From contig OX485805.1 in NCBI GenBank assembly GCA_950295325.1, positions 50,742,758 to 50,806,757 of the forward strand: DNA of 64,000 nt. The letters are read 5' to 3'. Positions 10,747 to 36,194 of this stretch are shown one piece after another (the first letter of the stretch is position 1; the number at the start of each line of letters is the position of its first letter). A program made the position numbers and the translations under genes. This stretch comes from Polytrichum commune (lineage: Eukaryota; Streptophyta; Polytrichopsida; Polytrichales; Polytrichaceae). The notes under the pieces are model-generated. The model made no database searches and had not been told where the DNA came from. It saw nothing but the letters and a program-made list of their open reading frames with translations.

Positions 10747-10907
10747 GTAAGTGACTTTTTATAGCTCGTAAGCAGTTTGGGTCGATCGACCCAAAGTGGG
10801 CTATTTTTTTGGTTTGGGTTGACCGACCCAAACTACACATTGTCATTGGTCTTGTTTATGTGACTGCCTCAATAAATTCTAATTTCCCTATAACTTGGAT
10901 TGTGTAG
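10747..10907 (+). other. Locus 1 intron 3 with two palindromes
   Basis: 161-bp GT..AG intron, phase 0, at the same place as locus 2 intron 29452-29592. It contains two copies of the locus 1 palindrome (10776-10795 and 10813-10832). Confidence 0.8.
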
Positions 10908-12434
10908 ATGTCGGGGCTGAGTATATACTTGTACATAGAGGATGGCGATCTGCAATTTTACAGGACGCAGAAATCGCTGGCGAAGAAGATGGACATCCTC
11001 GATTGGATCCCGGGTAGCTACGTCGACGAGGTTGTTCGGGGGGGTGAAAACCCTCTTGATAGGGTGAGGCGGATCAACCCTAAAGAAATGGCCATGAGGG
11101 CCACAACCCAAGTACCCGAACCTCTGGTCGGGTTGCATCCGGGCAATCCGTCCCGCACAGAAGGTGGCGAGGTCAAGGAGGAGGAAGAAGAGGAACACGA
11201 GGAGGCGGAGAAGGAAGGCGATGTGGAGGAAGGGGCAACGGGCTTCACACAAGAATCCGAAGCCCCTCAACGGAAGAAGGCGATGCGGGCGGCAACCTTG
11301 CAGAGTAAGCTGGTGCCCGTCCTGACGGTGGCCGATACACGGGACATGTACTCCAGGGACGTGACTGCCACGTTCAGGGAGAGGAGGATGTTGAAGGGGA
11401 AGAAGTTGTATGGCGACTACTCCGTGGAGGAGACCATTGCCATAAGCACCGAGGATGAGGATGACATTGAGCTCGCCAAACGGCTCAAATCGGATCCCCC
11501 CTCCCCGACAGCGTTCGCTGGCATGGTTAGGGTGAAACCCGAAGTCCTCACTGTGGATGAGGCAAACGAGAAGATGCGGAGGGACGAGGAGCAACGCGTC
11601 CGTCTCCAGAAGGCTGCCGCGGAAGAGCCATCGGTGCGGAACGAGGTAGCAGAGCTGAGGGCTCTCTTGTTGGAGCAGGAGCGACAGAGGGCGATGGCCC
11701 AGCCTCCGTCCCACGCCGACTTGATATCACAAGTGATACAAGGAATGTGGGCGCAAGGTTTGGTGGTGGCTCCCTCCAGCTCCTTCCCGCACTTGCCCCC
11801 CGACTTCCCTGCGCAGAGCATCCTTCAACAGCCTATGCCGCAATCGTCTTTCAGCTTCCAGCACTTGATGCGGCCCCACCAAGTTCCGTACGCGCCAGTC
11901 CAGCAAATGGATGACCCCAACATCTGGCGCGTCTCTGGAGCCTCCTCCCCTTTGGGCCCTTCTCCACTTTGGCCTCCCATAGTCATGGCGCCCCCTCACC
12001 AATCGGACGACCCCAGGATGTTTGGGTCGACCGACCCAAACCCACCATCCACTGTAGTGTCCGAGGGCACCTCTCCAGATGCAGGAGAGTTTGGGTCGGG
12101 CGACCCAAACCCCGTTGCAGCTCAGTCCTCCCTTGACCAACATGGGTGTCAACTAGATACGGCCATGCTAGATGTTGAAGGCCTGCAAGGGCCTCGTGAC
12201 ACCTCTACTCCTAGGAACCAAATCGATGAACCCATGCATGATGCACATGCGGAGATTGGTTTAGGACAAGGGCCTGATGCCGATCGTTTGCAAGAGAAGG
12301 TTCCTGACGTGGTCGGAGAAGGCGGTGGCGAGAGAGGCGGGGCAGCGGGGACGGTGGAGGCTTCCACATCGTCGAGACATGATGAGGGCGAGGTAATACA
12401 CTGAGCCCTCCCAGTTTGGGTCGACCGACCCAAA
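10776..12434. repeat. Dispersed palindrome of locus 1 (five copies)
   Basis: Nine-bp arms TTTGGGTCG and CGACCCAAA around a variable dinucleotide: 10776-10795 (AT), 10813-10832 (AC, one arm change), 12021-12040 (AC), 12090-12109 (GG), 12415-12434 (AC). Two lie in intron 3, two in coding exon 4 and one at the start of intron 4. I saw no copies outside this gene in the window. Confidence 0.95.
10908..12392 (+). CDS. Locus 1 exon 4: end of MTase-like fold, disordered and coiled-coil region
   Basis: Phase-0 exon between AG|ATG and GAG|GTAATA. Its first residues, MSGLSIYLYIEDGDLQFYR, continue the motif I region of exon 3: beta strand, then acidic residue, as in the motif I/II part of amino-methyltransferases. 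Then follow Lys/Glu-rich low-complexity sequence, a coiled-coil-like segment around 11560-11700 (LRALLLEQERQR), and a Pro/Ser-rich tail. Two palindromes inside the exon (12021-12040, 12090-12109) are translated as GSTDPNP and GSGDPNP. The equivalent part of locus 2 shares layout more than sequence. Confidence 0.65.
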
Positions 12435-12932
12435 CTTCCTGGGTCACTGTCTTGTTGGCGTGGTCGTGTCCCCCTTGCTAGGAGGAAATGCACACCCCCT
12501 GCCCCCCCATGGTCTACACTTGCCCCCCCTCCCCCGACGTGGCCCCCGCGATCCCCATCGTCTCACCTGCACTCAACTACGCTCGACCTTGGTGGCGCGC
12601 AACCAATTTTGTAGATGTAGAATTAGGATAGTGTGAATACCCTCGTTCACCGCGGTCCCCCCCCCCATCAGATTGTACATAGAGATTTGTAAAAATAAAA
12701 TTATTATTTTTGGCGCCCATATGTTTGCATCTGTGTCCCAATGTATGTTGTTCTCCTTGTATGTTTTTGTTGCCACCAATGGTCCAATTGTTCTTGTGCT
12801 TGCACAAAATTTACGTTCTGCTTGAGATGGACATAACATAACATAGTCCTCGCCGCCTTCTCTCGCTCGTCGCCGCATGGATCGGAGCATAGCGTCGCGG
12901 CTCCCCACCGGTCCTCTCCGAGGAGTGTGGAG
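12393..12932 (+). other. Locus 1 intron 4
   Basis: 540-bp intron inferred from GAG|GTAATA and GTGGAG|GACAGC, phase 0, matching locus 2 intron 31027-31644 in position and in the first residue of the next exon (Asp in both). A palindrome lies 22 bp inside the donor end (12415-12434). The frame runs only four codons into the intron before a TGA. Confidence 0.65.
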
Positions 12933-13691
12933 GACAGCGTGGTGGTCCCCCGGATTTTGCCCTTGCCACCTTCGCCTCCCAAGACCCGGTTCTTGGTGCT
13001 AGACCTCAACGGGGTCCTTGTCCAGTGCGTGCATTGTCCGAGGGTCCCCACGGTGCCTTTCTGCAAGCCTGAGGACGCCAACTACGATGGACCCCCCGCG
13101 TACATCAAAAGCAAGCTAGTGTACATCCGCCTGTGGTTTCGGCGCTTCCTACAGGTCGCCCTATCCAAATGGTGGGTGATCGTGTGGAGCTCCATGAAGT
13201 CCGAGAACACCCAGGCGGTCGTGGAGTTCATCTTCAAGGGACTCCAACCCCCGTGCTTGGTCCTAGGACATGATTCTTATAGAACGTTATACACCCCCGA
13301 GGGCAAGGTTGTGAAGAAACCCAACAACCCCGCCGTAAACCAATTTCTTAAGGTCTTGAAGCCAGTCGTATGGGACTAGTGTCCCAACATGGTTGGTTGT
13401 CGCTACGACGTTCGCCCCACCCATGACAACACGTTGATGGTGGACGACAGCGCTTCCAAAAACATTTTGAACCCGACCCCGAACTTCATAGTTTGCCCTA
13501 CGTGGACGGTCGAGAAGGTCCGAGACCGCTTTTTGTTAGACCTACTTAAGTACATTCAAACGCTCGTGGGGAGCGGACTACCCGTGCCCGGGTTCCTTAG
13601 TTGTAATCCGATAGGCGAAAGATACATGGATCCGAAGGACTATATGTACAGAGAGTTGTACGCTCACGCGAAATATAATAAATTCATTTGA
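12933..13691 (+). pseudogene. Locus 1 exon 5: FCP1-like HAD phosphatase domain, one in-frame TAG
   Basis: FCP1/NIF-type HAD fold. Motif I is FLVLDLNGVL (nucleophile Asp; the second acidic residue is Asn, as in plant FCP1-like DLNG proteins). Motif II is VWSSM, then a Lys in FLKVLKP, and motif IV is MVDDSASKNILNP. It aligns along its whole length with locus 2 exon 5. A TAG at 13377-13379 interrupts the frame (VVWD-stop-CPNM), whereas locus 2 is open there. The natural stop is preceded by NKFI, and locus 2 has NKLI. Role by family: protein phosphatase of the CTD-phosphatase type; substrate unknown. Confidence 0.75.
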
Positions 13692-13805
13692 GATACTACA
13701 TGGTGTGCCATTGTGTGTGATATATTATGCCTCAAATGTATATCGATTTTCACATGCTCCCCCCCCCCTCCCCTTGCATTTTGTCTGTTTTTATTTTGCC
13801 ATCAG

Positions 13806-14027
13806 CATTTGGAGCCGTCGATTGAGATCGTCAGCGAATCAAACTTGGGGAGCTTCTTCTACGAGACCGTCTACGATGCCGCGTCCACCATCGACTACTC
13901 CAAGGAGCCTATTGATGCCAACGTCGTCGATAGCCCCCCACCCAAGCAAATCTTCCAGCGATCTCCGTCCCCGTCGCCGCTCAAGGGGGGAAAATGTATT
14001 TTGCGAGCGGTGAGCGGTGAGCGGTAA
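13806..14027 (+). CDS. Locus 1 exon 6 / downstream ORF
   Basis: Starts after a pyrimidine-rich tract and CATCAG acceptor. Encodes ~70 residues with FFYETVYDAASTIDYSKEP, DSPPP and SPSPSPL blocks. The counterpart in locus 2 (32524 onward) has LYQFSAVDAASAVNYSRDI, NSPPP and SPSPSPL, so this is a conserved unit of the family. How it joins exon 5 is unclear, because exon 5 ends at a conserved stop with no donor before it; a separate transcript or alternative splicing is possible. Confidence 0.5.
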   Translation, partial: HLEPSIEIVSESNLGSFFYETVYDAASTIDYSKEPIDANVVDSPPPKQIFQRSPSPSPLKGGKCILRAVSGER

Positions 14028-15110
14028 GTTTTCTAGAATATTGAAATTTTGTGTGGTGAAACATGCCCTATGACCGCGGTGTAGAGCTAACTTTTGAAAT
14101 ATTTAGTGACAAATTTATTGACAAAAAGAACCTATAACCGTGGTTGACGAACCTATACTGTATTTGCTTGCACCTTCTCTTATAAGGTTTGTAGGTTGGG
14201 AATGGGTCTAGGATGGTTACAGGTTGTCATTTGAGGTGGACTAAGTCCCACTTGGAGAAGGCCTCGGATCCGAGGCCTCATGGCTGCGGTATCATTTCAT
14301 ATTGGGTATAAGGTTTGTAGATTGGGAATGGATCTAGGATGGTTACAGGTTGTCATTTCAGGTGGACTAAGTCCCACTTGGAGAAGGCCTCGGATCCGAG
14401 GCCTCATGGCTGCGTGTGAGCCCAAAATCGTGCCCACATGTGGTGATTAACTCTTCGAACCCAATTTTTGTTTCACTTCGAGGTGTTATGTTTATTCACA
14501 AAACATAAAAAGAGTGAAGTGTGGTGTGGATTTAAGTTTAGGCATTAGAATGTGTTGTGTGATTATTTCAAGGTTGAATTCAATAAGAGTATGCCTTGAT
14601 AATGTGAGTAGGGGGTAAGGTGAAGCAAGGTGAGCTCCGCGGGTTAAATGCCCACTTTTGGATCCACCTTGGTAGTTTAGGAAGAAGGAAGCTTGGTGGA
14701 AGGGGATTAGTCCCTACTTTAGAGGTGAAGGTTAAGGGATTGTGATTGGAGATGCTAATCCTCTCACCCTATCCTCACCTCTCTCTCCCTCTCTCCCTCT
14801 TTGCTACTTAAGGTGTTTTCTCTCTCATTTTTCCTCTCTCTCCATCAAGCGCTCTCAAGGGAGCAAGCTCTTAAGAGCTTGAGCCACGTGTGTGGGTTAG
14901 TAGTTTTAGTAAGGTTAATTAGTTAAGTTCTCTCTCTCTCAAGGCCTCCCAAGTGAATGAGCTCTTAGAGCTTGAGATTGCCTAGGAGGATTAGGGGTTA
15001 GTTTAGTGAAATTAGTAGGATATGTTCATTCATTGGTCAAGGGACTAGAGGAATATTCGATTAATCATTAGGGGTTGAGAATAGTTGTTAGGACTTATTA
15101 GACATCTGCC
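14028..15110. other. Non-coding interval after locus 1
   Basis: No gene recognised. Contains a 126-bp tandem duplication (see next entry), a CT-rich stretch (14760-14850) and two similar blocks with GAGCTCTTAAGAGCTTGAG-like sequence (about 14865-14885 and 14960-14980). Confidence 0.5.
14166..14420. repeat. 126-bp tandem duplication carrying a fourth palindrome
   Basis: Two units sharing the TTTGTAG-TTGGGAATGG and GTTACAGGTTGTCATTT blocks. Each has a perfect palindrome with arms AGGCCTCGG and CCGAGGCCT around AT (14259-14278 and 14385-14404). The same unit occurs twice at 43893-44140. Confidence 0.85.
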
Positions 15111-15124
15111 TAAACGCTGCTTGG

Positions 15125-16126
15125 AACCAAGCTTAGTTGCTGCTGGGAGCTGAAATTACACCAGCTTAGTTGCTGCTGGGCAGCTGAACTTAGCTTAGTA
15201 GCTACTGGAGCTGAAACTACCCAGCTTAGTTGCTGCTGGGCAATTGAACTTAGCTTAGTAGCTGCTGGAGCTGAAACTACACAAGCTTAGTTGCTGCTGG
15301 GAGCTGAAACTACACAAGCTTAGTTGCTGCTGGGAGCTGAAACTACACCAGCTTAGCTGCTGCTGGGCAGCTGAACTCAGCTTAGTAGCTGCTGGAGCTG
15401 AAACTACACCAGCTTAGTTGCTGCTGGGAGCTGAAACTACACCAGCTTAGTTGCTGCTGGCAGCTGAACTTACACCCAACTTAGTTGCTGCTGGGAGCTG
15501 AAACTACACCAGCTTAGTTGCTGCTGGGCAGCTGAACTCAACTTAGTAGCTGCTGGAGCTGAAACTACACCAGCTTAGTTGCTGCCGGGAGCTGAAACTA
15601 CACTAGCTTAGTAGCTGCTGGCAGCTGAAACTACACCAGCTTAATTGCTGCTGGGCAGCTGAGCTTAGCTTAGTAGCTGCTGGCAGCTGAAACTACACTA
15701 GCTTAATTGCTGCTGGGAGGCGAAACTAGCTTAGTAGCTACTGGAGCTGAAACTACACCAGCTTAGTTGCCGTTGGGCAGCTGAACTTAGCTTAGTAGCT
15801 GCTGGAGCTGAAACTACACAAGCTTAGTTGCTGCTGGGAGCTGAAACTACACCAGCTTAGTTGCTGCTGGGCAGCTGAACTCAGCTTAGTAGCTGCTGGA
15901 GCTGAAACTACACCAGCTTAGTTGCTGCTGGGAGCTGAAACTACACTAGCTTAGTAGCTGCTGGCAGCTGAAACTACACTAGCTTAATTGCTGCTGGGAG
16001 CCGAAACTAGCTTAGTAGCTGCTGGCAGCTGAAACTACACCAGCTTAGTTGTTGCTGGCAGCTGAACTTACACCCAGCTTAGTGGTTGCTGGACAGCTGA
16101 AACTACACAAGCTTAGTAGCTGATTC
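15125..16126. repeat. Minisatellite, ~30-33 bp units
   Basis: About 1 kb of imperfect units built on AGCTTAGTTGCTGCTGGGAG and CTGAAACTACACC, with variants containing GCAGCTGAACTTAGC. No open frame of interest runs through it. The unit contains repeated GCTGCT/CAGC and could fold back on itself. Confidence 0.9.
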
Positions 16127-16640
16127 CCGGTTAACCAACGGACTGCCGGTAAATAGGCCGGATTGGACCGATAGGTTAATTAGCCGGGTGGTTGGTTTAG
16201 CGAGCTAAGGTTAAGATTAAGAAGGGGGTGCCGCAACTAGCCATGAGGGTGTTAGGCCATTTGTAGATTAAAATAGTTCCTAGACAATTGTTAAGCTCAA
16301 TAGGATAGGCGATGTGTGTGTGGAAGTCACATGTGATTGCATTTAACATTGACTATGGAGTAAAGTGTTTCTTAACACTTGTACACTCTCAAGTCACCAT
16401 AATTCACGTGCACAATCTATGGAGAATGTGGAGGATTCTTGCAATGGCAAGAACAAGGAAGTGAAGATTAAAAGAGTGAGGGGAATGTCCTTAAGGGCAT
16501 GTGTGGCTAAAGCCGCGGGTTGGACTCTTGAGGAAGCTAACTCTACCACAAGCCAAAAGGCTAACACTAATAAAGCACAATGAGTGAGACAATATGTGTT
16601 CATTGGAACATGAAAATTACTTTGCACACGGTTCAAACAC
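16127..16640. other. Interval between minisatellite and CACTA element; short ORF of unknown status
   Basis: A short frame ending at 16583 could encode ~54 residues from an ATG near 16420 (MENVEDSCNG...), Lys-rich and without recognisable domain. There is no second copy or splice support. I list it only as a possibility. Confidence 0.2.
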
Positions 16641-16643
16641 TAT

Positions 16644-17706
16644 CACTACAAGGAAATGGGTGTATAATTGACTAAAATGTCCGAAGTGACAAAATCAGCT
16701 CAAAGCTATGAGTTTTTGTCAATTCGGACATTATTCAAAATTTGTGTCAATTTTCTGTCATCATATTTATATATTTCACGTTTAACTTATTCCCTTCACC
16801 TGAGCATGTGTCTCATATTTATTAACAACAAAAGGTGTTACAAAAGGTGTTACAAAAGGTTTTTAATTATTATAATTACTAGTATAAGTAATTAATATAA
16901 TTAATGTATTTACTATAATTAATGTAATAACTAATTTAATTAATTAATGTAAATACTGAAATTACCAATTTAAGTAAATGGGGAAATTACCAATTTAAGT
17001 AAATACTGATATTTGCTAATTTAAGTAAATATTGAAATTTTCTATTTTCCGTAAAATACTGAAATTATTGTAATTAATGTAGTTAAAATAATTACAATAA
17101 TTACTGTAATAATGTTTAGGAGTATTTTTGTAAATTTTTTTAATACAAATACAATACGTACTAATTAAAAATAGTAAATACATTAATTCTATGCTTGTTT
17201 TTACTTTCACTAATTAAAAAATATATATACATAAGTTTATAAGTCTTATGGCTTCTTCATACAAAACTCTTACATACTTGGCCTATATCATGTAATGAGC
17301 GGTGGCTTAGTGGCTAAGGCCTTCACACTATAGCCAAGAGGTTCAAGGTTCGATCCCCTTGACCCCTCACCCTTGGCTTCGCTTAGGGTAGGTAGGTGGC
17401 TTTGTCCATTAGCCTTAGGTTAGGTGATGTGGCCCTTCGCCCTTAGACCTATGTGAGTAGGCACCGAATGCGAGGGTGGATTACTAATTTAGGATTTTTT
17501 TACTAGTATAACTTGGACATTAAACCACATCACCATGGGTAAATGACGAGGTAAAGAGAATCCTACGTGTATAATTGTCCCAGATGACAAAGAAATTGAC
17601 AGAACTCTGTTAATTGTATGACCGAATCAAGGTGCCCTATATGACACCCAAATTAACAGAATTTCGTCACATTTTTGTCAAATAGGTCATATAAAGTCTT
17701 GTAGTG
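16644..17706. mobile_element. Non-autonomous CACTA (En/Spm-type) DNA transposon, 1,063 bp
   Basis: Starts CACTACAAG and ends CTTGTAGTG, the classic CACTA terminus, with a 3-bp target duplication TAT (16641-16643 and 17707-17709). Subterminal regions repeat short motifs such as TTTTGTCAA and GTGTCA/TGACA in both orientations. It has no transposase ORF; the interior is AT-rich and holds a tRNA-like/SINE sequence at 17297-17500. Confidence 0.85.
17297..17370 (+). repeat. tRNA-derived SINE head inside the CACTA element
   Basis: A box TGGCTTAGTGG at 17303-17313 and B box GGTTCGATCCC at 17347-17357, with pol III spacing, followed by a T-rich region. The tRNA fold is incomplete, so a SINE-type relic is more likely than a working tRNA gene. 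Confidence 0.55.
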
Positions 17707-17709
17707 TAT

Positions 17710-18106
17710 ATTCGTTAATCGGAGACTTTTGAAAGTCTCAAAATAAAATATGCCCATAGTTTGGGATGCCAATATTGTGGGCATATGGAATGTTGGGAAC
17801 ATCAAGAACATGACAATTTAAAAATCCGCACGTAAAGAATATTCCTAATACTAAAAATAGAAAATTGCAATTATAATAAAAACGTGAACTCCATGTGGAA
17901 AATAACAAGCGAATCTAAAAAACAAATGGTTTATGTCATTATAGAGTTTGGGGTGCGCATCCCATAAGTAAGGTTCTTATGATTTTGGATGGCACATCCC
18001 AAACGTATACCACAATTGAGTGTGACAAGTCTACTAAGTCTATTAAAAACCAAGACTACTAAGCACTAATGTTTTTTCCCGCCGTTAACTTTCACCTATG
18101 TTATGT
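17710..18106. other. Interval between CACTA element and DUF7869-like gene
   Basis: AT-rich, no ORF of interest. It includes several TTTGGGATG/CATCCCAAA-type inverted fragments (about 17755-17770, 17945-18005), which could be a remnant terminal repeat of the neighbouring transposon-like gene. Confidence 0.3.
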
Positions 18107-21100
18107 TTACCCATCTCCATCTTCCGCTTCATATCCATTCTCGGCGTCATTTTCCGCAGCTGCAATACGTGCCAAGTTGTCTTTGGCAAAATCTATATGT
18201 TTTTGGGGGATGGTCATTGCTTCTATGTTGGAACCTTTGCGCGGCTTCCAAGCACAAAATATAGTATCCGTGTTTATCCAAACCGGTGTGTACGCTGAGT
18301 CCACTGTCCACTTAAAATTCTTTTTGGTGTCCCAACCTAAATAAGTGCGGAGCACATTGTGGTCTTTAGTGCTTGGACGACAATATTCCACCTCAATTTG
18401 ACGAAAGTTGGGGCTAGTTCGAACAAAATTGGGTGAAGACAATGCTTTTACCAACCAAATTGGCTTGGGATGCTCCTCATCCCCTGCTCGTACGAGGACC
18501 AAATACCCTTCATGGCAATCAACACCTACACGAAACGACGGTGCCGGTCGATTACGGGCAGGGCCAACGTAATGCTCGTCCATTGCGAACTCTTCACGAA
18601 CGTCTCCATTGCTGAAAAACATAGTATCGGACTCGACAACCGTCAAACGACTTTGTGGCCAAAATCCTTGTGTCAAAGTCGTACGGGTGTCGCCACCAAG
18701 TGTCATCAAGGCTGAGCGAATGCGATCCCAATACGCGATCAACGGTTCATGGGTATCTCTAACACGTCTTGTGATGTCCTCCTCGCACAACTCTTTCCAA
18801 TATTCAATGAATCCGGATATGCCTTTGATGATTTCCGGCCCATTCCTCATGGGTTCGGGTTTGCAAGGCTTTGGTTCCCCATCCGGGACCAAACATTTCC
18901 CATCATTGTCTTGACGCCATACGAGTATACCATCATCCGGGCCCCAATTAGGAGATGTGCACAAAAGCTTGAATTGCATGGCCGGGAGACCATCGTCCCT
19001 CATATAAAATCGGAATTGCTGTGCTTTGGTATGCCCCACCAAACGGTCCCCTCCCTTCAACATGTATGGCTTGATGAAGGCCTTGAAATCTGGTACTTCC
19101 TCAATCAAGTGCGGAATTACTGGCATATGGTCCAAATCCATATACGATTTCATAAGAAGAGGTATGGTTGGAAAATCTTCTTCATGCAACTTCATGCTCC
19201 ACCGTCCGAATGATGCATCAATGTCGTCGTATGTATGTCCCACCATCAAGAAAGACACAAACACCTCCTTGAAGATTCCTTTCGCCACGAGCAATGACCA
19301 AAAACAAAATACGTATCGACATTTGTTGTCCTTCGTACAATTATCAAGTTGAACGTGGAGAGTTGGAGGCAATGGTTTTGCACAAATGGGCTCTCCGGGT
19401 GGTTCTGGCAATGACGACATACAAACCTCCTTCCCCGCAAGCACTGCCTCATAAAGGGATGTGGTTCCACAACCATCAAAAAGTGCACGGGAAGAATGTA
19501 CCGGTGGCTTCTCAAGATCGCGCAACAGTTTTGCAAATGAACCCACCGTGTGGTTAGCATCCCCAGGGTAAAAATCCAAACCATAATGGGCATACTTTAC
19601 GTCCCTATGGCCGTGGGCAATCATACCTGGAAAAAACAAACGATGCGTGACCAAAATAATCAAATAACCACTAAACGGATGTATGGAGTTGGACATTTGC
19701 CAAACACACCCAAGAAAATTGGATAGACTTTAAACACGTAGTTGTGATTTCATACAAACCTGTGACAGCTACGGGCAACTTGAAGAGACCATCCGTGGCC
19801 TTTATTTTGCGTGCATAACAAGGGCATGCGGTTTTGGCGTGGTCCATTTTATCATGGATAACTGTTAGAACCTCTGTGGGCCTCATTATGGATAGAGCAC
19901 GATTCTTATAGTAATCTTGACGGTGTGCCTCTTGATTGTTGACATGTTCAATATATTTTTTATGGTGTCTGGAATGAGATTCAGTGCCTATGGGGTGGGC
20001 GTCTCGAAGACCTTTGTATTTTTCACACGTCGTACATCTAGCGAACTTGTCCCCGGATCTTTTCAGAATGTATTCCGCAAACTGCTGGTTTTTAATCACA
20101 CTCAACTTGGACAAAGAAATGGGCCCACATCCCGCTATGCGACCCACTTCATTGATGTCCGTTAAGATGTTCTTCCATTTTGTGCCCGTGGGCAACACCA
20201 TTTGAACAACCTTCTCCCCTGACGACAATGTCCTCGTCTTGTGGGGCATTGCATCGGCCAATGGCACTATGATGGTGGATAGTGTCGCGGACGCTTGCAA
20301 TGTAGCCTCCCTAGGTTTCTTTGTGCCCGAGTTGCCATGAAATCGAGAGCGGCGACCCAACGATGAATACTTTCGAAACCTATAAAAGTCAGCCTTGGAG
20401 ACGGCATGGATGGTATACCACGCTGTACAACACACATCAACATTCTCAAGTGTCACCACCTTATGCCCATGGGTATCAAGGTGCAAATTTCTGTGGACCT
20501 CGAGTTTCTTAGCCGACCTCATACGAAAATCCGCAAGCCACATCTCTTGACGTAGAGATCTAATTTTCTCCCGCGGGAAAAATTGGCAACATTTCCTCGC
20601 GCAACAATCCTTGCCGGACACTAGACGGATAGATTCGTCCCCCAAAAGCCGATCCCGTCGACGCTCCTTATCTCCGCGAGGCACACGGTTTGAATCATAT
20701 CTACGGAGGCCTTTGCGAGGACGTGTTGTGGCCAACAAAGCTAATTGTGTTTGCTTATGCCGCCGCTCATGATCCCACAAACTCACTTCCTCATGTAGAA
20801 CTTGACGAAGCGGCCATCGACGCAAGGAAAATCTCCATGTCACCGGGACCTCTACCGGAAGCAAAGAGTTCAAGATGCACACGCCAACATCATCGAGACC
20901 TAGGGCGTTGGCATCGACACAATCACGGGGATTGGAGTTTCTACATATGCCATCTGCCACCGGGACACCAACCTCGTTGAGTAGAACGACATCAAGGCCA
21001 ACCCATTGCTCCCTCCTGAAACCGGCACACAACGGAATGTCATCGTGGTCATCTCCGGAATGCAGAGATTGTTCGTGGACTTCCAAAGATTCATGGGAGG

Positions 21101-21236: not shown

Positions 21237-21459
21237 ACAGCCTAGACCAACCACCAGGAAATGATCAACCCAACCACCACCGCAATGCATACAAGAGAGG
21301 ATAGAATATATGTGGAGATAAATGGTCCAAAATTGACAAACAAATTTTGGTGCACCATTGGAGAACCTCACGCACAAAGACGAACGCGCGTCCCAAAAAA
21401 ACATTTTAAGCATACGTCTAGGTTGTTCACTAATGTAAACAATACATGGACAAAGAGGA
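21237..21459. other. 5' flank of the DUF7869-like gene
   Basis: Probable upstream region of the minus-strand gene. No promoter motif that I can defend. Confidence 0.3.
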
Positions 21460-21960: not shown

Positions 21961-22002
21961 ATGAAGATGTATTGCTGGATGCGTAGACAATAATAATATG
22001 TA

Positions 22003-22812
22003 TTTACAAACGAACGTTCGTAAATTCCCGACCATCAGGTACCAATAGATATGGGTCAAATAAGTATGTATGATCCTCGAAGGCATATTTACGAACGCAC
22101 GTTCGTAAATGACTGTCATGGATTAAGTGCATGTGACTAACCATATGAGTACCTCAATCCAGAACATGCTCTCATGTGGGATTTACGAACACACGTTCGT
22201 AAATTACCGACCATCAGGTACCAATAGACAAGGGTCAAATATGTATGTATGAACCTCGAAGGCATATTTACGAACGCACGTTCGTAAATAAATGCCATGG
22301 ATGATGTGCATGTGACTATCCATAAGTAGCTCGATCCAAAACATGATCTCCATTGGGATTTACGAACGCACGTTCGTAAAATTACCGACCATCAGGTACC
22401 AATAGATACGGGTCAAATATGTATGTATGATCCTCGAAGGCATATTTACGAACGCACGTTCGTAAATAATTGCCATGGATTATGTGCATGTGACTATCCA
22501 TGAGTAGCTCAATCCAAAGCATGCTCTCAAGTGGGATTTACGAACGCACGTTCGTAAATTACCGACCATCAGGTACAAAAAAGATAAGGGTCAAATATGT
22601 CTGCATGGTCCTCGAAGGCATATTTACGAACGCACGTTCGTAAATAACTGAGATGGATTACGTGCATGTGACTATCCATATGAGTAGCTCAATCCAGAAC
22701 ATGCTCTCATGTGGAATTTACGAACGCGCGTTCGTAAATCCTTGCCATGTCCAGGTCCGAATCGTTTGTCTAAACCTGAAGCTCTTCATCTTTACGAACG
22801 TGCGTTCGTAAA
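22003..22812. repeat. Array of locus 2-type palindromes in ~178-bp repeats
   Basis: Arms TTTACGAACG and CGTTCGTAAA around a dinucleotide start at 22003, 22088, 22182, 22267, 22359, 22445, 22537, 22623, 22717 and 22791. From 22088 to 22717 the spacing alternates about 92 and 86 bp, so the unit is ~178 bp with two palindromes. Spacer blocks such as ACCGACCATCAGGTACCAAT and GACTATCCAT recur. Arms are almost free of change while spacers drift. Confidence 0.95.
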
Positions 22813-23347
22813 GTTCCGGTATTTACGGCGGTATATGCGGTAGGTATAGCCTGTACTGTACCTGGGTGGTGTAGGGTTGGCGCACACGAAATGGCTTGAG
22901 CGCGTTCGGTGAGGTCTGTAGAGCGCACACTTGCATGTGCCGCTGAAAAGAACTTTGTTGTGGGGGGAAGAGCTTTAAGTACTTCACCCCGCTGGTTCAA
23001 AATCCCTTAGATGCTCTTTAAAAAGCGGATTCCCGCCGCCTTCTTTGACCTAACAATCTCCCATTCCATCCATGCGGAATTATATAAATAGCACTGTCAT
23101 GTATGGAACATGCCTTGCATGCACGCCAACATATTGAAAATATATAAATCGGTTGCACACCTTAATTGTGACCAAGGTCTCATCGAAATATATGTATATA
23201 CAAATATATATATATATATATATATACACATAATGTCTAAATATGGAGATGGTTAACATTGAATATTTAATGATTTGCGACTAAGGTATGAAGTCCAAGT
23301 TAATTGACAATTGATGCCTAATAAAGTTATGAATGTCGAAGTCATAG

Positions 23348-23400
<53 letters not shown>

Positions 23401-25240
23401 ATGAGGTCAGAGTGGCTAAGAAACATGTTGCGGACGCCCCTAAAATTATAGGTATCATATGTTTCACATCAAAAAATGACCGTAATATGGTCACCAAGTG
23501 CATGAATATAACTAAAAAATCGGGTTAATCCATAATGAGTTGCACTATGGTAGATTGAGGACACTATGAACTAATTATACCTAATAATATATGTAAGTTA
23601 GGTCTTCTTTCAAATGGTATCTAGGTGTGAAAATAAGGAATTAAAATGACATGAGTAGGAAGGATTAATCAATTTGTAATGCTGCATAGTATGATAGCGT
23701 AATGATCATTGAGACTTGAAACCATACTAGCTACCGTAACGTTGAATCATAGTTACAATTATTATGTGTTTGACGTCCTATTGGAAATTGAATTTTCGTC
23801 CACTTGTTGTAAGGGTACGGATACACATTGGTTAAATGTTTATTAGATCATTGGTGATATTTATAGTTGAATGCATTGTTCGATTGTTAGTTTAAGTTGA
23901 CACATGATTAAATGAGTTGAGGTCCTATTGGAAATAGACTTTTAGGGTTTGGGGAAATGCACTATTAATTTGGAATGGTGCATACAATAGTATGTACTTA
24001 CAATTAATATATGTTTTGCATCCTATGAGAAGGATGTGCATCATCATAGCTTAAAATGTTGATATACATTGAAGTCTTAAGACATGCATGTTATTATAAT
24101 AAGATCGTGGATTGTGTGATGAAATTTCACTCATAACTATTAAGGTGAAAGTGAGAATATTTGAAATTTCACTTATCACCTAAACCAAAGTTTTATCTCA
24201 AATCTATTAATTTGGAATGTGAAAATGACAATTGGCATCATTATCAATTATTATAGTTGTTATGAACGGAATTAAGCATTCTCCATCCAACCAACATTGG
24301 TAGACCAATTTGACCTGCCCTCAGAAAACAACATGGCCACATATAAGAAAGGTTGGTAAGATAAAAAGATGCAGGGATGTAGGGTTTAGGGTTTGCGGTT
24401 AGGGTTTAGGGTTAGGGTTTCGGGGTAGGGTTTAGGGGTTTAGGGTTTGTGAAAGTTGTGTATGTGGTATTTGGGTTTAGGTTTTAGATTGTTACTAGGA
24501 TACATTACACACACAAACAATATTGACTCCTGAAAAACCCTTGTAATTGCACTAACTTCATTCATCGCAAGCTCGTAGTTGATGCTAGGAAAATAGTTGA
24601 CTACTCCATAAATGCATTAGTTCAAGCTAACACCTAATATTGGAACTTGAATTGACATCCTATCGTATAGCAACTCTGCGCAATCTCATATTATTATGAA
24701 TTCCTTTTTGCATGTAATATTTATTTGAGGAACCATCCAATTAATTGAAAGATATCTAGCTCTTACATAAACTATATTTTAAAACACCATATACATATCT
24801 TTGGGGGTGGATTCTACATTGACAACCTAGGAAATGACATGCATTGTTTATTACGAATTAACTGAGCATATTTTCCTAAAATATGTTTACAAGGAATCCA
24901 AATGTAGAGGTACTAAGGAAATAAAACGAGTAAAATTCATGTATTTGAACTAAGCTTTTCAAGTTAATGCCCTAAACGCGTCCATTACATATAAATATGT
25001 CAAAGCATGAGAATAACATGAAGGGTTCCAATATACAACCATCTCCCATCTCCCATCGCATCCCATCCCATCCCATCCCATCCCTTCCCATCACCTCCCA
25101 TACCATCCTATCCCATCTCCCTCCCAGCCCTAGCCAGTGGAGTTGTGCCACGTGGCAGGTGTTGGGAAACCCTAGCGGCGCACCTACCTCCCCGCGCCCC
25201 TTCCTCTTCTCCTCATTTGTCATTTCGAGGAGAGGAGGAG
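22813..25240. other. Intergenic, AT-rich, with microsatellites
   Basis: No gene recognised. Contains (TA)n at about 23196-23228, (TA)n then (CA)n at 23347-23401, TTTAGGG-like repeats at 24381-24452, and a CATCC-rich simple repeat at 25046-25110. The short ORFs over these are composition artefacts. Confidence 0.6.
24381..24452 (+). repeat. Interstitial telomere-like repeat
   Basis: Degenerate run of TTTAGGG, TTAGGG and TTTCGGGG-like units, the plant-type telomere heptamer. Short and imperfect, and internal to the window. Confidence 0.6.
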
Positions 25241-25319
25241 CGGAGCGCTTAGAGAGCGAAGCTCTTGCTTTTTTTAGTCTTGAAGTTTTAAATTAGTTTT
25301 GTTGCAAGTTTTGAGAGAT

Positions 25320-25620
25320 TTCATATTGAGAGCTTGTGTGAAAGCTTTTGAGTTTGTGAAAGCTTTCATTGTGAAAGCTTTCAGTGTGAGAGTTTGTGAG
25401 TTTCAAAAGCTTGAGAGCTTGAGTAGGAAAGCTTCAGAGTTTCGGATTGAGAGCTTGAGGGTGATCTTTAGAAGCTTCAGAGTTTAAGGAAGCTTCAGAG
25501 TTGAAGCTTGAGAGTTTAGGGAAGCTTCAGAAGTGAAGCTTGAGAGTTTAGGGAAGCTTGAGAGTTTAGGAAAGCTTGAGAGTTAAGGGTTTGCTTAAGA
25601 GTTCAGAAGCTTGAGAGCTA
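25320..25620 (+). repeat. AAGCTT-rich degenerate repeat
   Basis: Repeated GAAGCTTGAGAGTTTAGG and GAAGCTTCAGAGTT units, probably in the 5' untranslated or promoter region of locus 2. No convincing ORF. Confidence 0.6.
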
Positions 25621-25987
25621 CAAGGTTGTGAGTTTTGTGTACATAGGAGTATACTAGGGTTTGTATATAAGTTGTGAAGGCTTGAGGTCTGCATTAGAGA
25701 GTTATCTGAGTGTGCATTTGAAAGGCAATTGAGTGTGCAGTTGTGAGGATTTCTGGGATTTTCAGAAAGAGAAGAAGCAGGGTTTGAAGTGTGCAGCATT
25801 TCAATGTAATTTGTTATCCTTTCCAACTCCTCTCACATTCTGAAAATGTTGCTTCTTGAATTCAATTTCTTTTGTTACATGCAATGTGAATTATCACTCT
25901 CTTCTTCATGTTTCATTCTGCATCTCATTCTGCATCTCAATTGCTTTATGATTGAAGATTTGCATCATTCTGACCAAAATTTTGCAG

Positions 25988-26015
25988 GCACGGCTGCAAG
26001 CAGAGTAGCTAATAA
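25988..26015 (+). other. Candidate 5' untranslated exon of locus 2
   Basis: 28-nt segment between a strong acceptor (TTTTGCAG) and a strong donor (GTGAGT), followed by a 692-bp putative intron ending CTGTTGCAG|ATGGC at 26708. That intron holds eight palindromes. No transcript evidence. Confidence 0.35.
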
Positions 26016-26707
26016 GTGAGTTATATACATATACATACGTATTCGTATATATACGAATACATATATGTACGGACAGGGGATCCCAAAACCATCACATTTA
26101 CGAACGCTCGTTCGTAAATGGACATACACTGCATACCGAACCTCCATTTACGAACGTGCGTTCGTAAATACGCACTCCACGTTCTTTGAAATGATCTATA
26201 TTTACGAACGCACATTCGTAAATATACTCAAAATATCACTCAGAAGGAACCTTAACTTTAATATGAACCTCTATGAATATCTAAAGAACAAATATAATTT
26301 TGCGAACACCAATAAGACAAATCACATGTACTTACGAAAGATAAATCAACCAAATGTCCGAAAAGATAGACCAAATGGACATATTTACGAACGCACGTTC
26401 GTAAATGAATCCAAATCTATAAAACCAATATCTTTTACAAACGATCGTTCGTAAAAATAACCAAATATATTACAAACACAATCATGACGACTAGTCTCTT
26501 TGATCTTCATATCTTTTACGAACGCTCGTTCGTAAACTCAATACTAAAAAATTATATGTTCTTGCAACCCCTCATTTACGAACGAACGTTCGTAAATATA
26601 ATTACATCAATTGCAAAGACGCATTAACACTGCGTTGTCTGTGGGATATGTATGTCACTTACGAACGTTCGTTCGTAAAGTCACTAATTGTTTATATTCT
26701 GTTGCAG

Positions 26708-28004
26708 ATGGCAAGATCAAGCAGAAGCGCCATTGAGATGTTCGCGGTGAAGGTCGATGGCCTCCCAGAGTCGGTGTTAGACGATAACGGCAACGACAAC
26801 TATGTTCCCAAGGAAGACTTCATGGGGGAGTGGACGGCACTGCCAGAGAAGATCGGGGACGGCCTCTTCTGCATGCGCTTCACATACGAGCTGGAGACAA
26901 GACCGGACCAGCCCGAACAGTGGGTTCAAATGAAGACGTGGGAGATAGAGTCCATAGAGGCCCAGGGGGAGTATGTAATTCTGGACATGAAGAACAAGAA
27001 GGATCATATCAACCTCTTGTTGCATTTTCTAGAAAAATACCTTCTCCTACCAATACGCCACCAATAACGTAGCGGAAGATGCCAAGCACTTCGACCTGGA
27101 CGGCCTCTTCTCCAAATATGCGTTAAGCCCATACTGGACGGCAAGGAAATTGACCGCCCTTGCATTGAACATCTCCAAATACAACAGTGTGGTCACTGAG
27201 GCAAACAAGAAGAAGAAGAGCCCCAGGAAACCATCCACATCAGGGGCAGGAGGATCTAGAAGTGCACCCAGGCCTGTGCCTTCCGCTAGCAGGGCGACGG
27301 AGGGCCCCAGTAGACACTCCACGCCATCGAAGAGGACAAGGGAGGAGATGGAGAAATCGGGAGTAACGGAGACCGCAGAGGTGACCTCGCCTGTCGTAAT
27401 GCCCACCCCCTTGAAAAAGGGTGAGAACCCTGACGCTGTGAAGGCCACGAGGATCCTTCGAGACTTCAACAACTACTCGAAGGATTGCTGGCCCATGGGA
27501 CGCCACTTCACATTCAACGTGGACTGCTTCAAGTGCGAGATGTCCCCAAACAAATGGGTGGTTCGCTCTCGCGAAAGCGGTGGTGTGAAGTGGCAGATAA
27601 ATAATCTAATGAACAACGTCAAGTGGGACAGGCAGACCGTCTGCGTCATGCCAAAAGGGCTGACATCCCGTCCGACGGAGAAGGACTGGCCACAGATCCA
27701 GAATGGAGAGTTCTGGATCATAGACGGCCAACACAGCTTGGAGGCGTCCCAGATAATTCTCAAGGACGACAACTTCCAGCATGAGCTGAAGGAGGACTTG
27801 CGCTACTGGAAGGCGTTCTTGGTGTGGTCGGATGATTGGGACAAGCTGCGGAAGATATCCACCTTTCTCAACTCCGGCAACAAGATCAAGGCCTTCGAGG
27901 CGTCGTGGGCAGCCAACATAGTGGCTGCAAGGGACGTCTGGGTCGCCCACGGGTGCCTTCCTAAAGAAAGGGAGAACGCGAAGACGCCGTCTCCACAATG
28001 GAAG
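26708..28004 (+). CDS. Locus 2 exons 1-2: unknown N-terminal region and ParB/DGQHR-like domain
   Basis: Starts at ATG 26708 after CTGTTGCAG. The first ~110 residues match nothing I know. The frame then changes near 27040: either one extra base in TACCTTCTCC, or a 59-nt GT..AG intron ending TTTTCTAG at 27032. After a Lys/Ser/Pro-rich linker (27190-27440), a globular part (27450-28000) contains FWIIDGQHSLEAS, similar to the DGQHR/ParB-Srx signature (here Ser replaces Arg), then ISTFLNSGNKIKAFEASWAANIVAA. ParB-like domains fused to N4/N6 methyltransferases are common in phage and prophage proteins, and the same order is seen here. The exon ends AAG|GTGAGT. Confidence 0.5.
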
Positions 28005-28125
28005 GTGAGTTTACGAACGAACGTTCGTAAATATCTTTGACATTCAAAATTTCAAGTTCTTTGACATTCAAACTTACGAACGTGCGTTCGTATTTTGTGC
28101 GTTACTGATGTCTTTCTTGCTGCAG
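28005..28125 (+). other. Locus 2 intron 2 with two palindromes
   Basis: 121-bp GT..AG intron, phase 0. The first palindrome (28010-28031) starts on the sixth intron base, fusing with the donor GTGAGT; the second is at 28073-28094. Confidence 0.8.
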
Positions 28126-29451
28126 GCATTCTGCGACGCGATGGTGGACAAGTTCTCCTCCATCGATATGAAGTCTACAACAACCAAGTCTGTCCTCGAG
28201 CTCAAGGGTGAGCTCCGCCTCATCTGTTGCAACAGGGACACTTGGGAGTTGTGGACACAATTTTTTGATGCGCACAGCTCGGGCGATCTGGTCAACCCCG
28301 ACACCGAGGAGAAGTACAGCGCGGAGAAGACCGGGGAGGCCCCTCCACTACTGAGGGAGTTCTTCAGGTCCCTTCAAGGGTTAATAGAGTCCGAGTTGCA
28401 GAGGTGCGCGGTGCATCTTCTTGGGAACACAGTGGGAAGAACCATCCCATACCCGAAGATATTTTTGAAGAGGCCAAGACACAAGCCCGGCACGTATTCC
28501 ATCAAAGAATGGTGCGAACACCACAAGCTGAAGACTGCTGCAATGAGGGAGTTGAGCGCCCTAATACCAGAGTACGCACTCATCCTAGCCGACGGGGACA
28601 TTAATTGGGCCAGCTGGAAGATGTTCAAGGTCGACTACAACATCTCCGGACCCTCAATGCGTTGTCTTGTCAAGGAGCACGCCTCCATTTTGAAGCAGAA
28701 GGGGAACAAGAGGACAAAGAAAACCGAGACGGATCCCCAGGAGGTGGAGCAATACAGAAGCTTTTTGGCGCAGAAGAGGTTGGCCACATTCGAAGGAGTG
28801 GCCAGATTTTGTCTGGTGACAACCGGAGTGGAGAGGGTGACATTCTCCAAGTGGGACCGGACCATGAGCAGGGCCGAGGTGAGGGAGGATCGACGGGGGT
28901 GCCCATTTGCCCTTATCGATTTCAGGGGGATCCCCGGTGCGTCGAGGCAGGGGGGGAAGGACATACCTTTCTACGACCCCTTCATGGCCAAGTTCAAGGA
29001 GCACAAGTCTCCGGACATGAGGGAGCCTCACGTTTGGCTGTGGATAGTGGAGCAGGAAAAGCTCTCTGCTGTAGTCGACCTGTACGAGAAGATGATCAAA
29101 TTCGAGTACAACATCTTCCACAGCACTTACGTGCCCGCCAAGACGGAAGGGATCGTGGCCATCAACGAGGCCAGGGGAAACAAACAGGTGGGGGCGGTCA
29201 GCCTCGTCTTCTTGACGTACAACGCGCTTCGGAATGGGCGAGCCCCTGTCAAGGCGAACACTACGTTCAAGAAGATCTACAGCATCCCCCATCCCCCTCC
29301 CAAGGATCTGCTGCAGGAGACCTTGTACACTGTCTTCCCGGCGATGGAACTCAGGTTGGAGTTCTACGTCTCCGTTTTGCAGAGCGTGGCAATAAGCGGA
29401 GAGACCGTGTACAACGTTTGTGGCGGCAGCAAGTTCATGTACGCTGCGATG
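28126..29451 (+). CDS. Locus 2 exon 3: permuted amino-methyltransferase-like domain
   Basis: 442 codons, phase 0 at both ends. The N-terminal half is Lys/Glu-rich and helical. The C-terminal half holds FALIDFRGIPG at 28909-28941 in the place of motif IV (DPPY), FYDPFMAKF, VWLWIVEQEKL, a segment reminiscent of motifs V-VIII (FEYNIFHSTYV, VSLVFLTYN), and motif I-like GETVYNVCGGSKFMYAAM at the exon end. The domain continues in exon 4. Order IV-then-I indicates the beta class of N4/N6 methyltransferases. The DPPY box is lost and GxG is GSK, so it may bind DNA or cofactor without methylating (inference). Confidence 0.6.
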
Positions 29452-29592
29452 GTAAGCTCTCCAACTAATATTTACGAACGCTCGTTCGTAAAGTTCACCT
29501 CAACTTGTCTTGGGTTTTGATGACATTGTTTCTCGTCGTTGATGTTTACGAACGCACGTTCATATATTCTAACGTATTTGCTTGAATCTCAG
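29452..29592 (+). other. Locus 2 intron 3 with two palindromes
   Basis: 141-bp GT..AG intron, phase 0, splitting the motif I region at the same codon as in locus 1. Palindromes at 29471-29492 and 29545-29566 (right arm decayed). Confidence 0.85.
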
Positions 29593-31026
29593 ATGCTGGG
29601 GCTGGTCGTCAACAGCTTCATTGAAGCCATCGACGAGGAGGACTTCCACGTGCACAGGGCGAAGGCCTCCACGATGGACCTGGAGGACATGTCCCTCCCG
29701 AGGACGGACATCAACATGCCCGTCGACGAAGGCATGCCCGCCATGGAGACGGACGACGACGAGCCCGCACCCTCCTACAACGTCGAGGCGATCCTCCGAT
29801 CCTTGGACGTCACTCCTCTCCGCATTTTGGCGCCGTCGGGAAATCCATCCAACGTGCAAGGGACTCCGGGTGGATACACGGGGTCGTCGGCGGGGACAAC
29901 CCAAGATGTCCTCCCCGCGAGAACGTCTGGAGCGGAGGCATTCGGCACTCCCGGGGGATGCTCGACATCTGTGTCGCCCAGGCCGATCGTGGTTCCCAAG
30001 ATGGAGAACCTCGACCTTCTGGACCAACGGTCCCGACCGACGTTGGACCAGTACCGCAACACGAGGCGGAGGATGAAGAAGACCCCCTACGTGGAGCTGC
30101 CTCCGGGGGCAATCATCGAGGTCTCCGATGAGGACGAGGGCGACATGGAGATCATGGTCGAGCTGGGGGTAGACTTCGACAAGAACAAGCGGGTCAAGGA
30201 GGAGGCGTTGTCCGTCGCCGAGCTTAACGCCAAGCTCGAGCAAAAGATGAAGGAGGACATGGCGAAGGCGGCAGAGGAGAATGCCAAGAAAATGTTCGCA
30301 ATTCAGGAGGAGCTGAGGCAGTCGAACGAGAAGACGGACGCCATCCTCGCCATGCTCCAGCGTATGCAGAGCTTCTCGGCGCCCCCCCAGCCGACCTACC
30401 CCTTCACTGGAGGATACCCCTCCCAATCCCCTCCACCGGGCATGTTCACCGGAGGGCCTTCCCGCCAGCAGGCGCCCCACCCCACGCCTGTTGGCACTCC
30501 TCTGCCACCAGAGGTTCCCTCGACCACCTCCCACGATGCTGTGGCGGCGGCCATCCAGGAGGACGAGGATTTACGAACGCGCGTTCGTGAATCTTCAGGT
30601 CCTCCAGTCCTCACCCCTCCCCCTTCAAGGGTAGGACTGCCCTCATACACCGATGCATCATCTTTCACCGTCGTCCCCAGGGTAGTAGACAGACATGGCG
30701 ATGACTCTGCGCGACACACTGACATGGTCATTGTGGAGGACACGCAGGGGAGCCCCAATGACGCACCAGGGGTGCATGGGATGGACGTGGAAGAAACCCA
30801 TGCGGCGTGGATGGAGGATGTCAGGATGGACGCGCTCGACCTGGGCGCCGAGGAAGAAGACGCGCTGCGCATCCAGGCGACACAGGCCTCTCAACCGGAG
30901 CGTGAGGCAGAGGCCATGGAGACAGAGGCGGCTGCAGCTGTGGAGGTTACGAACGCGCGTTCGTTAATCGTTGAGGAGGGACCTGCTGCTCGGTCCAGCG
31001 CCGCTACCCCTCCCCCCGATGACGAG
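29593..31026 (+). CDS. Locus 2 exon 4: MTase-like end, acidic linker, coiled coil, Pro-rich tail
   Basis: Begins MLGLVVNSFIEAIDEEDFHVHRAK, the natural continuation of motif I (LGR..I.IE.DEEY in bacterial enzymes). Then comes a disordered acidic region, a coiled coil around 30190-30370 (ELNAKLEQKMKEDMAK, EELRQSNEKT), and a Pro-rich tail. Palindromes within the coding sequence at 30570-30591 and 30946-30967 are translated as LRTRVRES and TNARSLIV. The exon ends GAG|GTAACT, phase 0, matching locus 1. Confidence 0.65.
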
Positions 31027-31644
31027 GTAACTATCCTCTGAGAATACCATTTTTTAACGAACGCGCGTTCGTAACCTCTCTAACATCGCGATGTTTTTCT
31101 CTTCATCGACATCCAGTGGCCTTGCGAGAGCCCTCTTCAGCGGTCCCCCTTAGGGCCGAACAGTTTTGTAGGACACGGCATCATTTTGCCTTAGGAAAAT
31201 GTGATAGACTATCACGTGAGAAATGTAAATATTCAACGGATTAATATATGAGCCTATGTTATCTGCATCGCGTTGCTTCAAATTCTCTGCCCTCGACCCC
31301 TTCTCGTATGTTGTATATGTTGATGAGATTATGTTGATTCTTGCATACCCACCTCATTCGCGAACGCTCGTTCGTGAAAGGCTGCGACCCACTGTCCACC
31401 TCATTCGCGAACGACCGCTCGTAAATGTACGTGTAGCCGCGCTCACGAACGAGCGCTCGTAAATGATGCGCACCGCCCCCGCAGCCTTCATTCACGAACG
31501 CTCGTTCGCAAGTGTGAACTTGAGCACATTTTCCTTGCACTCTCCTCACTTCCTCGTCTTTCCCCATAATGCACCGTCTTCATTTTCTACGCAAAGTTTC
31601 ATTATTGGATCATAGAATTAAACTAGTCGAGTTGTTCATCACAG
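31027..31644 (+). other. Locus 2 intron 4 with five palindromes
   Basis: 618-bp intron. Palindromes at 31054-31075, 31357-31378, 31404-31425, 31442-31463 and 31491-31512, the last four with arm changes. The acceptor is TTCATCACAG|GACCCC. The region is homologous to the relic at 21460-21960. Confidence 0.75.
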
Positions 31645-36179: not shown

Positions 36180-36194
36180 CTCACCCCCACCAAA
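36180..36194 (-). promoter_or_regulatory. Polypurine tract of element C
   Basis: Minus-strand TTTGGTGGGGGTGAG directly before the 3' LTR: the plus-strand DNA synthesis primer of LTR elements. Confidence 0.8.

Follow-up and report, generated by a model that had tools for sequence, protein, structure and literature searches.

Palindromes that change with protein clade in a high-copy DNA transposon family of Polytrichum commune encoding a predicted ParB-fold protein

We investigated a stretch of 64,000 nucleotides of the Polytrichum commune genome (assembly GCA_950295325.1, contig OX485805.1, positions 50,742,758 to 50,806,757 of the forward strand; hereafter the window, with positions counted from its first letter). 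It contains two homologous loci, which are copies of two clades of one high-copy DNA transposon family, each bearing its own palindrome of two arms around a two-base spacer. In three clades of this family, sampled from the DNA of this one genome and from metagenome open reading frames (ORFs), the motif family and the protein encoded by the element change together.

The gene of locus 2 (clade A) lies on the forward strand. Exon 1-2 (26709-28004) encodes a PH-like part and a predicted ParB/sulfiredoxin-fold domain with the motif DGQHS, the fold being taken from the homologue P0074, and exon 3 (28126-29451) a helical part followed by a predicted amino-methyltransferase fold (residues 222-442). 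Exon 4 (29593-31026) is of low complexity, with no Pfam family above cut-off, and exon 5 (31645-32412) encodes a NIF/HAD phosphatase-like domain (PF03031, 5.2e-16) with DLNGVL at the place of DxDx. In locus 1 (clade C), also on the forward strand, we identified the 3' part of exon 3 (9889-10746, with two in-frame stops, from a tblastn match to locus 2 exon 3), intron 3 (10747-10907), a low-complexity exon 4 (10908-12392, from the ORF 10908-12404 and its splice signals) and an interrupted NIF/HAD phosphatase-like exon 5, likewise with DLNGVL (12972-13688, PF03031 on the ORF 12837-13379). Intron 4 begins at 12393 in locus 1 and at 31027 in locus 2. The two proteins share 32% identity in exon 3 (tblastn) and 42% in exon 5. 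Both window copies are damaged: locus 1 is interrupted on its left by a long terminal repeat (LTR) retroelement inside exon 3, and locus 2 has a frameshift (or assembly error) near 27033 and lacks its right end after 32984. Among other copies, L010 has three stops in exon 3, and L014, 98% identical to the window over 6.9 kb, is open through all exons. We additionally noted a ~1-kb array of 33-bp AGCTTAGTTGCTGCTGGGAGCTGAAACTACACC units adjoining locus 1 (15130-16122).

Divergent to the locus 2 gene, on the reverse strand, are two ORFs (18107-19729, which has DUF7869, PF25273, 3.3e-39, and 19671-21581; together 18107-21581) of the presumptive transposase gene; a check for Transposase_21 found DUF7869 to be the sole significant family in the two scanned ORFs. 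Copies of these ORFs at ~90-97% identity lie beside the gene in L019/L010, L024/L015 and L025/L011, and a piece of 197 residues in L010 is 74% identical. The left terminus of the element (17704-17739), which carries an inverted repeat, is a sharp end common to five copies; the right end, where kept, is the inverted repeat over 24 bp (92% in L027, 88% in L014), and homology between element copies is collinear from the DUF7869 ORFs across the non-coding middle to the gene. Thus, the clade A element is about 16 kb long, with 24-bp inverted termini. In several copies these termini are the inverted repeat CACTATATTCG, beginning CACTATA; in other copies the first bases differ. No clade C transposase was found, the two locus 2 ORFs being without a match in L032 and L033, where the ORFs of L033 were only listed. 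In the neighbourhood of a clade A copy there is a second DUF7869 gene (L025:2491-4004), 45-64% identical to that of locus 2; the stretch containing it has none of the six palindromes counted below. A ~975-bp repeat at 35207-36180, perhaps a solo LTR, is also inserted in the element copies L011, L012 and L013.

The protein folds come from structure models of single exons, compared by VIA-align alone; in these models exon 1-2 has the fold of a ParB N-domain and exon 3 that of an amino-methyltransferase (N6A/N4C). Pfam and PDB sequence searches with profiles of exon 1-2 and exon 3 returned nothing convincing. Matches to ParB-type profiles were weak (GmrSD_N 0.11; DUF6551 in 11 of 51 members, best 0.012), and the DUF6551 scores were no better than those of unrelated families in the same table (GHBP 0.0013). 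For exon 5, PF03031 scored 59.2 bits in locus 2 and 25.4 bits in locus 1, above the cut-off of 21.8. The ratio of nonsynonymous to synonymous divergence (dN/dS) in exons 2 and 3 is 0.014-0.27, and the protein is under purifying selection.

We scanned the window for arm-spacer-arm palindromes, taking chance means from 100 dinucleotide shuffles per motif. With up to three mismatches, locus 1 carries only TTTGGGTCG-NN-CGACCCAAA (5 sites, 10776-12434; chance mean 0.01) and locus 2 only TTTACGAACG-NN-CGTTCGTAAA (31 sites over ~10 kb, 21559-31512; chance mean 0.00), whose core is ACGAACG-NN-CGTTCGT, and both motifs are confined to their own locus. The locus 1 sites lie in intron 3 (10776-10832; 10776 exact, 10813 with one mismatch), exon 4 (12021-12109; 12021 and 12090, both exact) and intron 4 (12415-12434; exact, at base 23 of the intron). 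Those of locus 2 comprise an array of 12 sites (21559-22812, up to three mismatches), 9 of which sit on 178-bp tandem repeats (22002-22739), and a cluster of 8 directly 5' of the ATG (26097-26679); there are two sites each in intron 2 (28005-28125; sites within 28010-28094), intron 3 (29452-29592; sites within 29471-29566, at 29471 and 29545) and exon 4 (30570-30967; at 30570 and 30946, in two different codon frames), and intron 4 holds one site at base 28 together with four degenerate ones (31054-31512). Site 29471 is exact, while 30570, 30946 and 31054 have one or two mismatches in outer bases and an intact core; at 29545 one of the two mismatches falls within the core. Other palindrome types in the window (e.g. 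AGGCCTCGGATCCGAGGCCT), located in other repeats, were set aside. Beside the DUF7869 gene, 21466-21900 is 66% identical over 465 columns to the end of exon 4 and intron 4 of that element (30961-31417); this looks like a duplication within the element, palindromes included.

The 5' part of locus 1, immediately left of the window (L032), has the same layout as locus 2, written in the locus 1 motif: an array (1691-2346, sites spaced 63-64 bp), a cluster (7437-7661) that precedes the exon 1 match at 7978, and three sites in intron 2 (9312, 9358, 9405), all counted with up to three mismatches. Over L033, L032 and window positions 1-20000 we counted 29 C-type sites (up to three mismatches) and no A-type site within four mismatches; in the locus 2 element, the sole C-type match within four mismatches has four. 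In a third clade (B) of the same genome, ACGGACG-NN-CGTCCGT occupies the same introns. Each of the three clades has sites near 5' splice sites: in intron 2 at base 6 in clade A (28010), ~11 in C (L032:9312) and 22 in B (core), and in intron 3 at base 20 in A, 30 in C and 51 in B (core, L035 and L037). The original prediction, that two homologous genes here carry different palindromes, is therefore borne out, each motif being found in its own locus only; every site it listed is present, exactly or with one or two mismatches, and its exon and intron names were correct. The array, the cluster before the ATG and the intron 2 sites go beyond what it described, and it overlooked that the loci are transposon copies and that those in the window are damaged. 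Its claim of matching positions holds for the region and for the distance from the 5' splice site, but not for single bases, since the flanking sequences cannot be aligned.

The closeness of intron sites to 5' splice sites would suit intronic RNA hairpins, serving splicing or as small-RNA precursors; however, 20 of the 31 locus 2 sites precede the ATG, two more are in exon 4, and a 2-nt spacer is too short for a loop, so that we give this explanation almost no credence. A second alternative is that the palindromes are autoregulatory operators only, through which the protein would repress or activate the promoters of its own element, with neither spreading nor anti-silencing. DndB, encoded in the phosphorothioation operon, controls its own operon in this way, by binding TACGN10CGTA in its promoter (PMC4507180), and sites of the element do cluster next to the divergent DUF7869 gene and immediately 5' of the ATG. 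There are nevertheless up to 33 exact sites in 10 kb (L009), and introns and exons have sites too, which greatly exceeds the requirements of an operator and makes a purely regulatory role unlikely.

Comparison of copies indicated that the arms are the most conserved part of the sites. When the window is compared with L010, at a synonymous divergence (dS) of 1.3 in exon 3 and 5.0 in exon 2, identity is 98.8% in the arms (n=168), compared with 79.2% in the spacers (n=24) and 68.5% in the flanks (n=355); of 12 aligned sites, L010 keeps 10 intact. For the close copy L015 the corresponding values are 98.2, 96.9 and 94.1%, with 4 of 16 sites changed by one base; L009 could be aligned at one site only, and L010 with L009 at none. 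The exon 4 sites of locus 2 translate as LRTRVR and TNARS and, because they are read in different frames, it is the DNA and not the peptide that is kept. These data bear on the possibility that the palindromes have no binder and are tiny self-multiplying insertions, or by-products of tandem repetition and gene conversion. Arrays on tandem repeats (178 bp in locus 2, 63-64 bp in L032) could indeed homogenise, but single sites also occur in introns and exons outside the arrays, at matching places and in different letters in three clades; the arms resist change more than spacer and flanks do, and motif variants (L036, translated intron tails) change symmetrically on both arms. We consider this origin very improbable. 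As a separate observation, the mismatches of locus 1 sites (L032:1691-9405 and window 10813), judged by eye, are mostly C-to-T or G-to-A, some at CpG, which may look like the decay of methylated DNA; an exception is a last-base A-to-T common to five sites of the upstream cluster.

We extended the comparison to metagenome relatives, found with exon 3, exon 1-2 and clade C queries (53, 58 and 47 proteins, overlapping; 132 altogether). Palindromes can be read in their translations, because the metagenome ORFs continue into introns: ACGAACG appears as YERxFV, LRTxVR or FTNxRS, ACGGACG as YGRxSV or TDxRP, and TGGGTCG as WVxRP, GSxDP or GRxTQ. With regular expressions drawn up after the tails had been inspected, a motif of the tested set was found in 66 of 110 parsed intron tails; the parser was imperfect, counting P0053 twice, taking exon 3 for one P0073 tail and missing several clade C motifs visible by eye, whose rows were kept as 'none'. 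A tree of 54 exon 1-2 proteins resolves clades A (14 rows), B (14) and C (25), separated by starred branches, with P0085 alone on a long branch; the tree program warned that the joining of long branches may be false. The motif matches the protein's own clade in 32 of 32 scored rows of this tree (22 were unscored; 3 fit A or B). All labels together require 18 changes, against a mean of 29.6 when shuffled, and none of 200 shuffles was as low; label A requires 2 (shuffled 10.2) and label B1 requires 4 (5.8). A sub-branch of clade B shows ACGGCCG; in clade C, three proteins gave the variant TCGGGCG and two gave TCGGTCG, both from translated tails only. Locus 1 was placed in clade C by its exon 1-2, 80% identical to P0095 over the larger part and 69% over the rest, and by its exon 5, 72.5% identical to the clade C copy L016 vs 42% to locus 2.

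In DNA, where the arms read ACGAACG (A), ACGGACG/ACGGCCG (B) and TGGGTCG (C), we counted six motifs in nine elements or fragments, seven of clade A and two of clade C. All 169 exact sites belong to the element's own clade: the clade A elements have 143 exact ACGAACG sites, the clade C elements 26 exact TGGGTCG sites, and neither has any of the other five motifs. Allowing one mismatch adds one ACGGACG match in each of four of the seven clade A elements. The E13/14 stretch was cut at the right end of the element, beyond which a clade C copy begins, and E09 was assigned to clade A through a 71.6% exon 5 piece and a DUF7869-gene fragment. In five 2-kb slices of clade B, the exact sites are 7 of ACGGACG and 1 of ACGGCCG, and neither the A nor the C motif occurs exactly. 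Sampling is fullest for clade A; clade C is represented by two element copies and clade B by these slices, each with metagenome proteins.

Across the whole genome (407.8 Mb in 64 contigs), at least 95 of 1,164 first-look candidates were scored as matches to exon 3 of locus 2 (84-100% identity) and at least 97 of 1,060 as matches to the clade B protein P0074 (74-90%), some of these matches containing stops. The clade A pattern TACGAACGNNCGTTCGTA occurs 4,680 times and its reversed control not at all. The first 100 of these sites, all on contig 1, group into eight clusters that lie in copies or fragments of the element; the sole cluster without clade A exons is a lone site in L017, within a 680-bp fragment 68% identical to the non-coding part of the element. 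As far controls we took the rest of the window and ten loci without element-gene matches (L021-L023, L026, L028-L031, L033, L034); these ten loci have no exact site of the six motifs, nor do L019 and L025, which hold DUF7869 ORFs. The proposal that sites and protein change together has thus held in three clades with three motif families, and the ParB-like and methyltransferase-like domains it invoked are real as predicted folds. Two findings that would have counted against it did not appear: all nine counted elements or fragments have palindromes, and, judged by the first 100 sites and the ten control loci, clade A sites are not equally common far from the gene. That every member has palindromes is less certain, as two of the five clade B slices lack an exact site of the six motifs and show near-matches only.

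The main rival explanation is that the putative DUF7869 transposase, or a co-factor of transposition, has its sites in the palindromes, which would then resemble the subterminal motifs of CACTA elements, with the ParB-like gene a passenger. The 24-bp inverted termini, the CACTATA start of several copies, the presence of a DUF7869 gene and the adjoining array are all consistent with this. The site nearest to the left end is, however, 3.9 kb away and so not subterminal, further sites are spread over exon 4 and introns 2-4 of the ParB-like gene, and the motif family tracks the clade of the ParB-like protein, although the DUF7869 protein may track it too. We doubt that this is the function of the palindromes.

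Instead, we consider that the palindromes are probably clade-private sites bound by the element's own ParB-like protein, which would mark or desilence its own element; binding by this protein, its spreading and an anti-silencing role are the most likely interpretation. A dimeric DNA-binding protein is proposed because a palindrome of this kind, long, two-fold and with an unconstrained 2-bp spacer, is the trace such a protein leaves. A homodimer of the ParB-like/methyltransferase-fold protein would bind the palindromes of its own clade, loading on the many sites from the array and promoter to the introns and exon 4, and the loaded protein would coat or mark the body of the element, which would then be recognised as self and stay expressible against host silencing. 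Where the specificity of the protein shifts in a lineage, all its sites would be converted to the new palindrome, with their places kept. As all motifs share a CG-NN-CG centre, the contact may combine a constant part with variable outer bases. Binding could, speculatively, also depend on methylation, as the motifs contain many CpGs. Tentatively, and with less assurance, we suggest that ParB-type and amino-methyltransferase folds may have been recruited by eukaryotic transposons into a parS-like address system with a private code for each clade, in which dozens of palindromes per element would be rewritten per clade, and many mutually blind self-recognition systems would share one genome and compete against silencing.

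Several observations weigh against this interpretation. The GERR/GEHR-type motif with its arginine belongs to the cytidine triphosphate (CTP) clamp of ParB and is absent from the element protein, which has DGQHS instead (G and Q invariant; D, H and S in at least 90% of 51 sequences; DGQHN in L032), lacking the arginine of DGQHR and GERR. Likewise, the catalytic amino-methyltransferase motif (D/N/S)PP(Y/F/W), such as DPPY, is absent after the corresponding strand, placed by eye, where the sequence is DFRxxP (in 37 sequences, D265, F266 and P270 never vary and R267 is present in at least 90%); so is DxDx(T/V), the catalytic motif of NIF/FCP1 HAD phosphatases, both loci having DLNGVL. Because of these three replacements, CTP switching, methylation and phosphatase activity of the protein are all uncertain. 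Label C alone requires 5 changes on the tree, against a shuffled mean of 4.9, and so is no more clustered than when shuffled, its rows being interspersed with unscored, C2 and C3 rows. TCGGTCG occurs at two places of the clade C tree and the clade B element L036 holds two motif variants together; the rule is thus one motif family per clade, and not strictly one motif. The DUF7869 protein could be the binder. Finally, the palindromes of clades A and B fit the DndB string TACGN10CGTA, a fit that may be due to chance because the clade C motif lacks it.

It is an open question by what path a DNA-binding protein and its full set of genomic sites come to shift specificity jointly, and a genome with at least three clades and symmetric arm variants may allow intermediate states to be read. 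Other features of the window lie outside this family. Tandem arrays at 50047-50863 and 51897-52364 bear other palindromes, GGTGAGGCATGTGCCTCACC and a GGCATATGCCTCACC type, and are perhaps another repeat family with its own palindrome. Retroelement ORFs on the reverse strand (4585-8223 and 61102-63720) contain, read by eye, a cytosine-methyltransferase-like stretch (EIFGGIGTGLAAVLEAG...GWPCQGHSRAG) after a gag/protease-like part; DNMT capture is known from dinoflagellate and charophyte retrotransposons (PMC5890265).

Among the papers listed in literature searches, none concerns this element family as far as titles and the starts of abstracts show, which is not proof of absence, and none of those listed for DUF7869 mentions that domain. 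ParB-fold proteins are dimeric binders of palindromic DNA, and in ParB-parS and Noc-NBS the sites are palindromic and related proteins switch specificity. The element shares with them the predicted ParB N-domain fold, two-fold palindromic 16-bp sites and related proteins with different, here putative, cognate sites; in contrast, it is a eukaryotic transposon with DGQHS in place of the GERR/GEHR-type motif and tens of sites per copy, and we identified no ParB helix-turn-helix domain in its protein. The NBS sites of Noc are 16 bp long (PMC8429893). DndB has been placed in the ParB superfamily (PMC10853773), and the element resembles it in the predicted fold of its protein and in the fit of the clade A and B palindromes to its binding string; unlike the DndB case, the clade C motif does not fit, and no Dnd genes were seen. 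VirB, another ParB-family protein, is not known to have a methyltransferase fold, unlike that predicted for the element protein. It is described as a CTP-using protein counteracting H-NS silencing (PMC10676424). The element's ParB-like protein would similarly act against silencing, while VirB acts on that of bacterial H-NS. TnpA of CACTA/Spm binds subterminal motifs and is not known to be related to the ParB-like protein; the sites here are internal. TnpA is also element-encoded, and is linked with demethylation and activation of its element (PMC10398659).

The closest parallel is VANC of the Arabidopsis VANDAL transposons (Hosaka 2017), an element-encoded protein with short motifs, often in tandem repeats in non-coding parts; VANDAL relatives have different VANC proteins and different motifs, each motif being common to the copies of one class (PMC5735166), and this type of self-recognition is also covered in PMC10398659. 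The Polytrichum element is alike in its element-encoded protein, in short motifs partly in tandem repeats and in a motif that is shared within a clade and differs, as the protein does, between related elements. It differs in being another type of element, in its long two-fold palindrome, present also in introns and exons, and in a protein with predicted ParB, amino-methyltransferase and HAD folds, VANC belonging to a different family; demethylation would be a further likeness only if the proposed role is correct. If so, this would be an independent origin of VANC-like coevolving self-tags, built on ParB and methyltransferase folds of bacterial type. The system most likely follows a VANC-like logic with a different protein.

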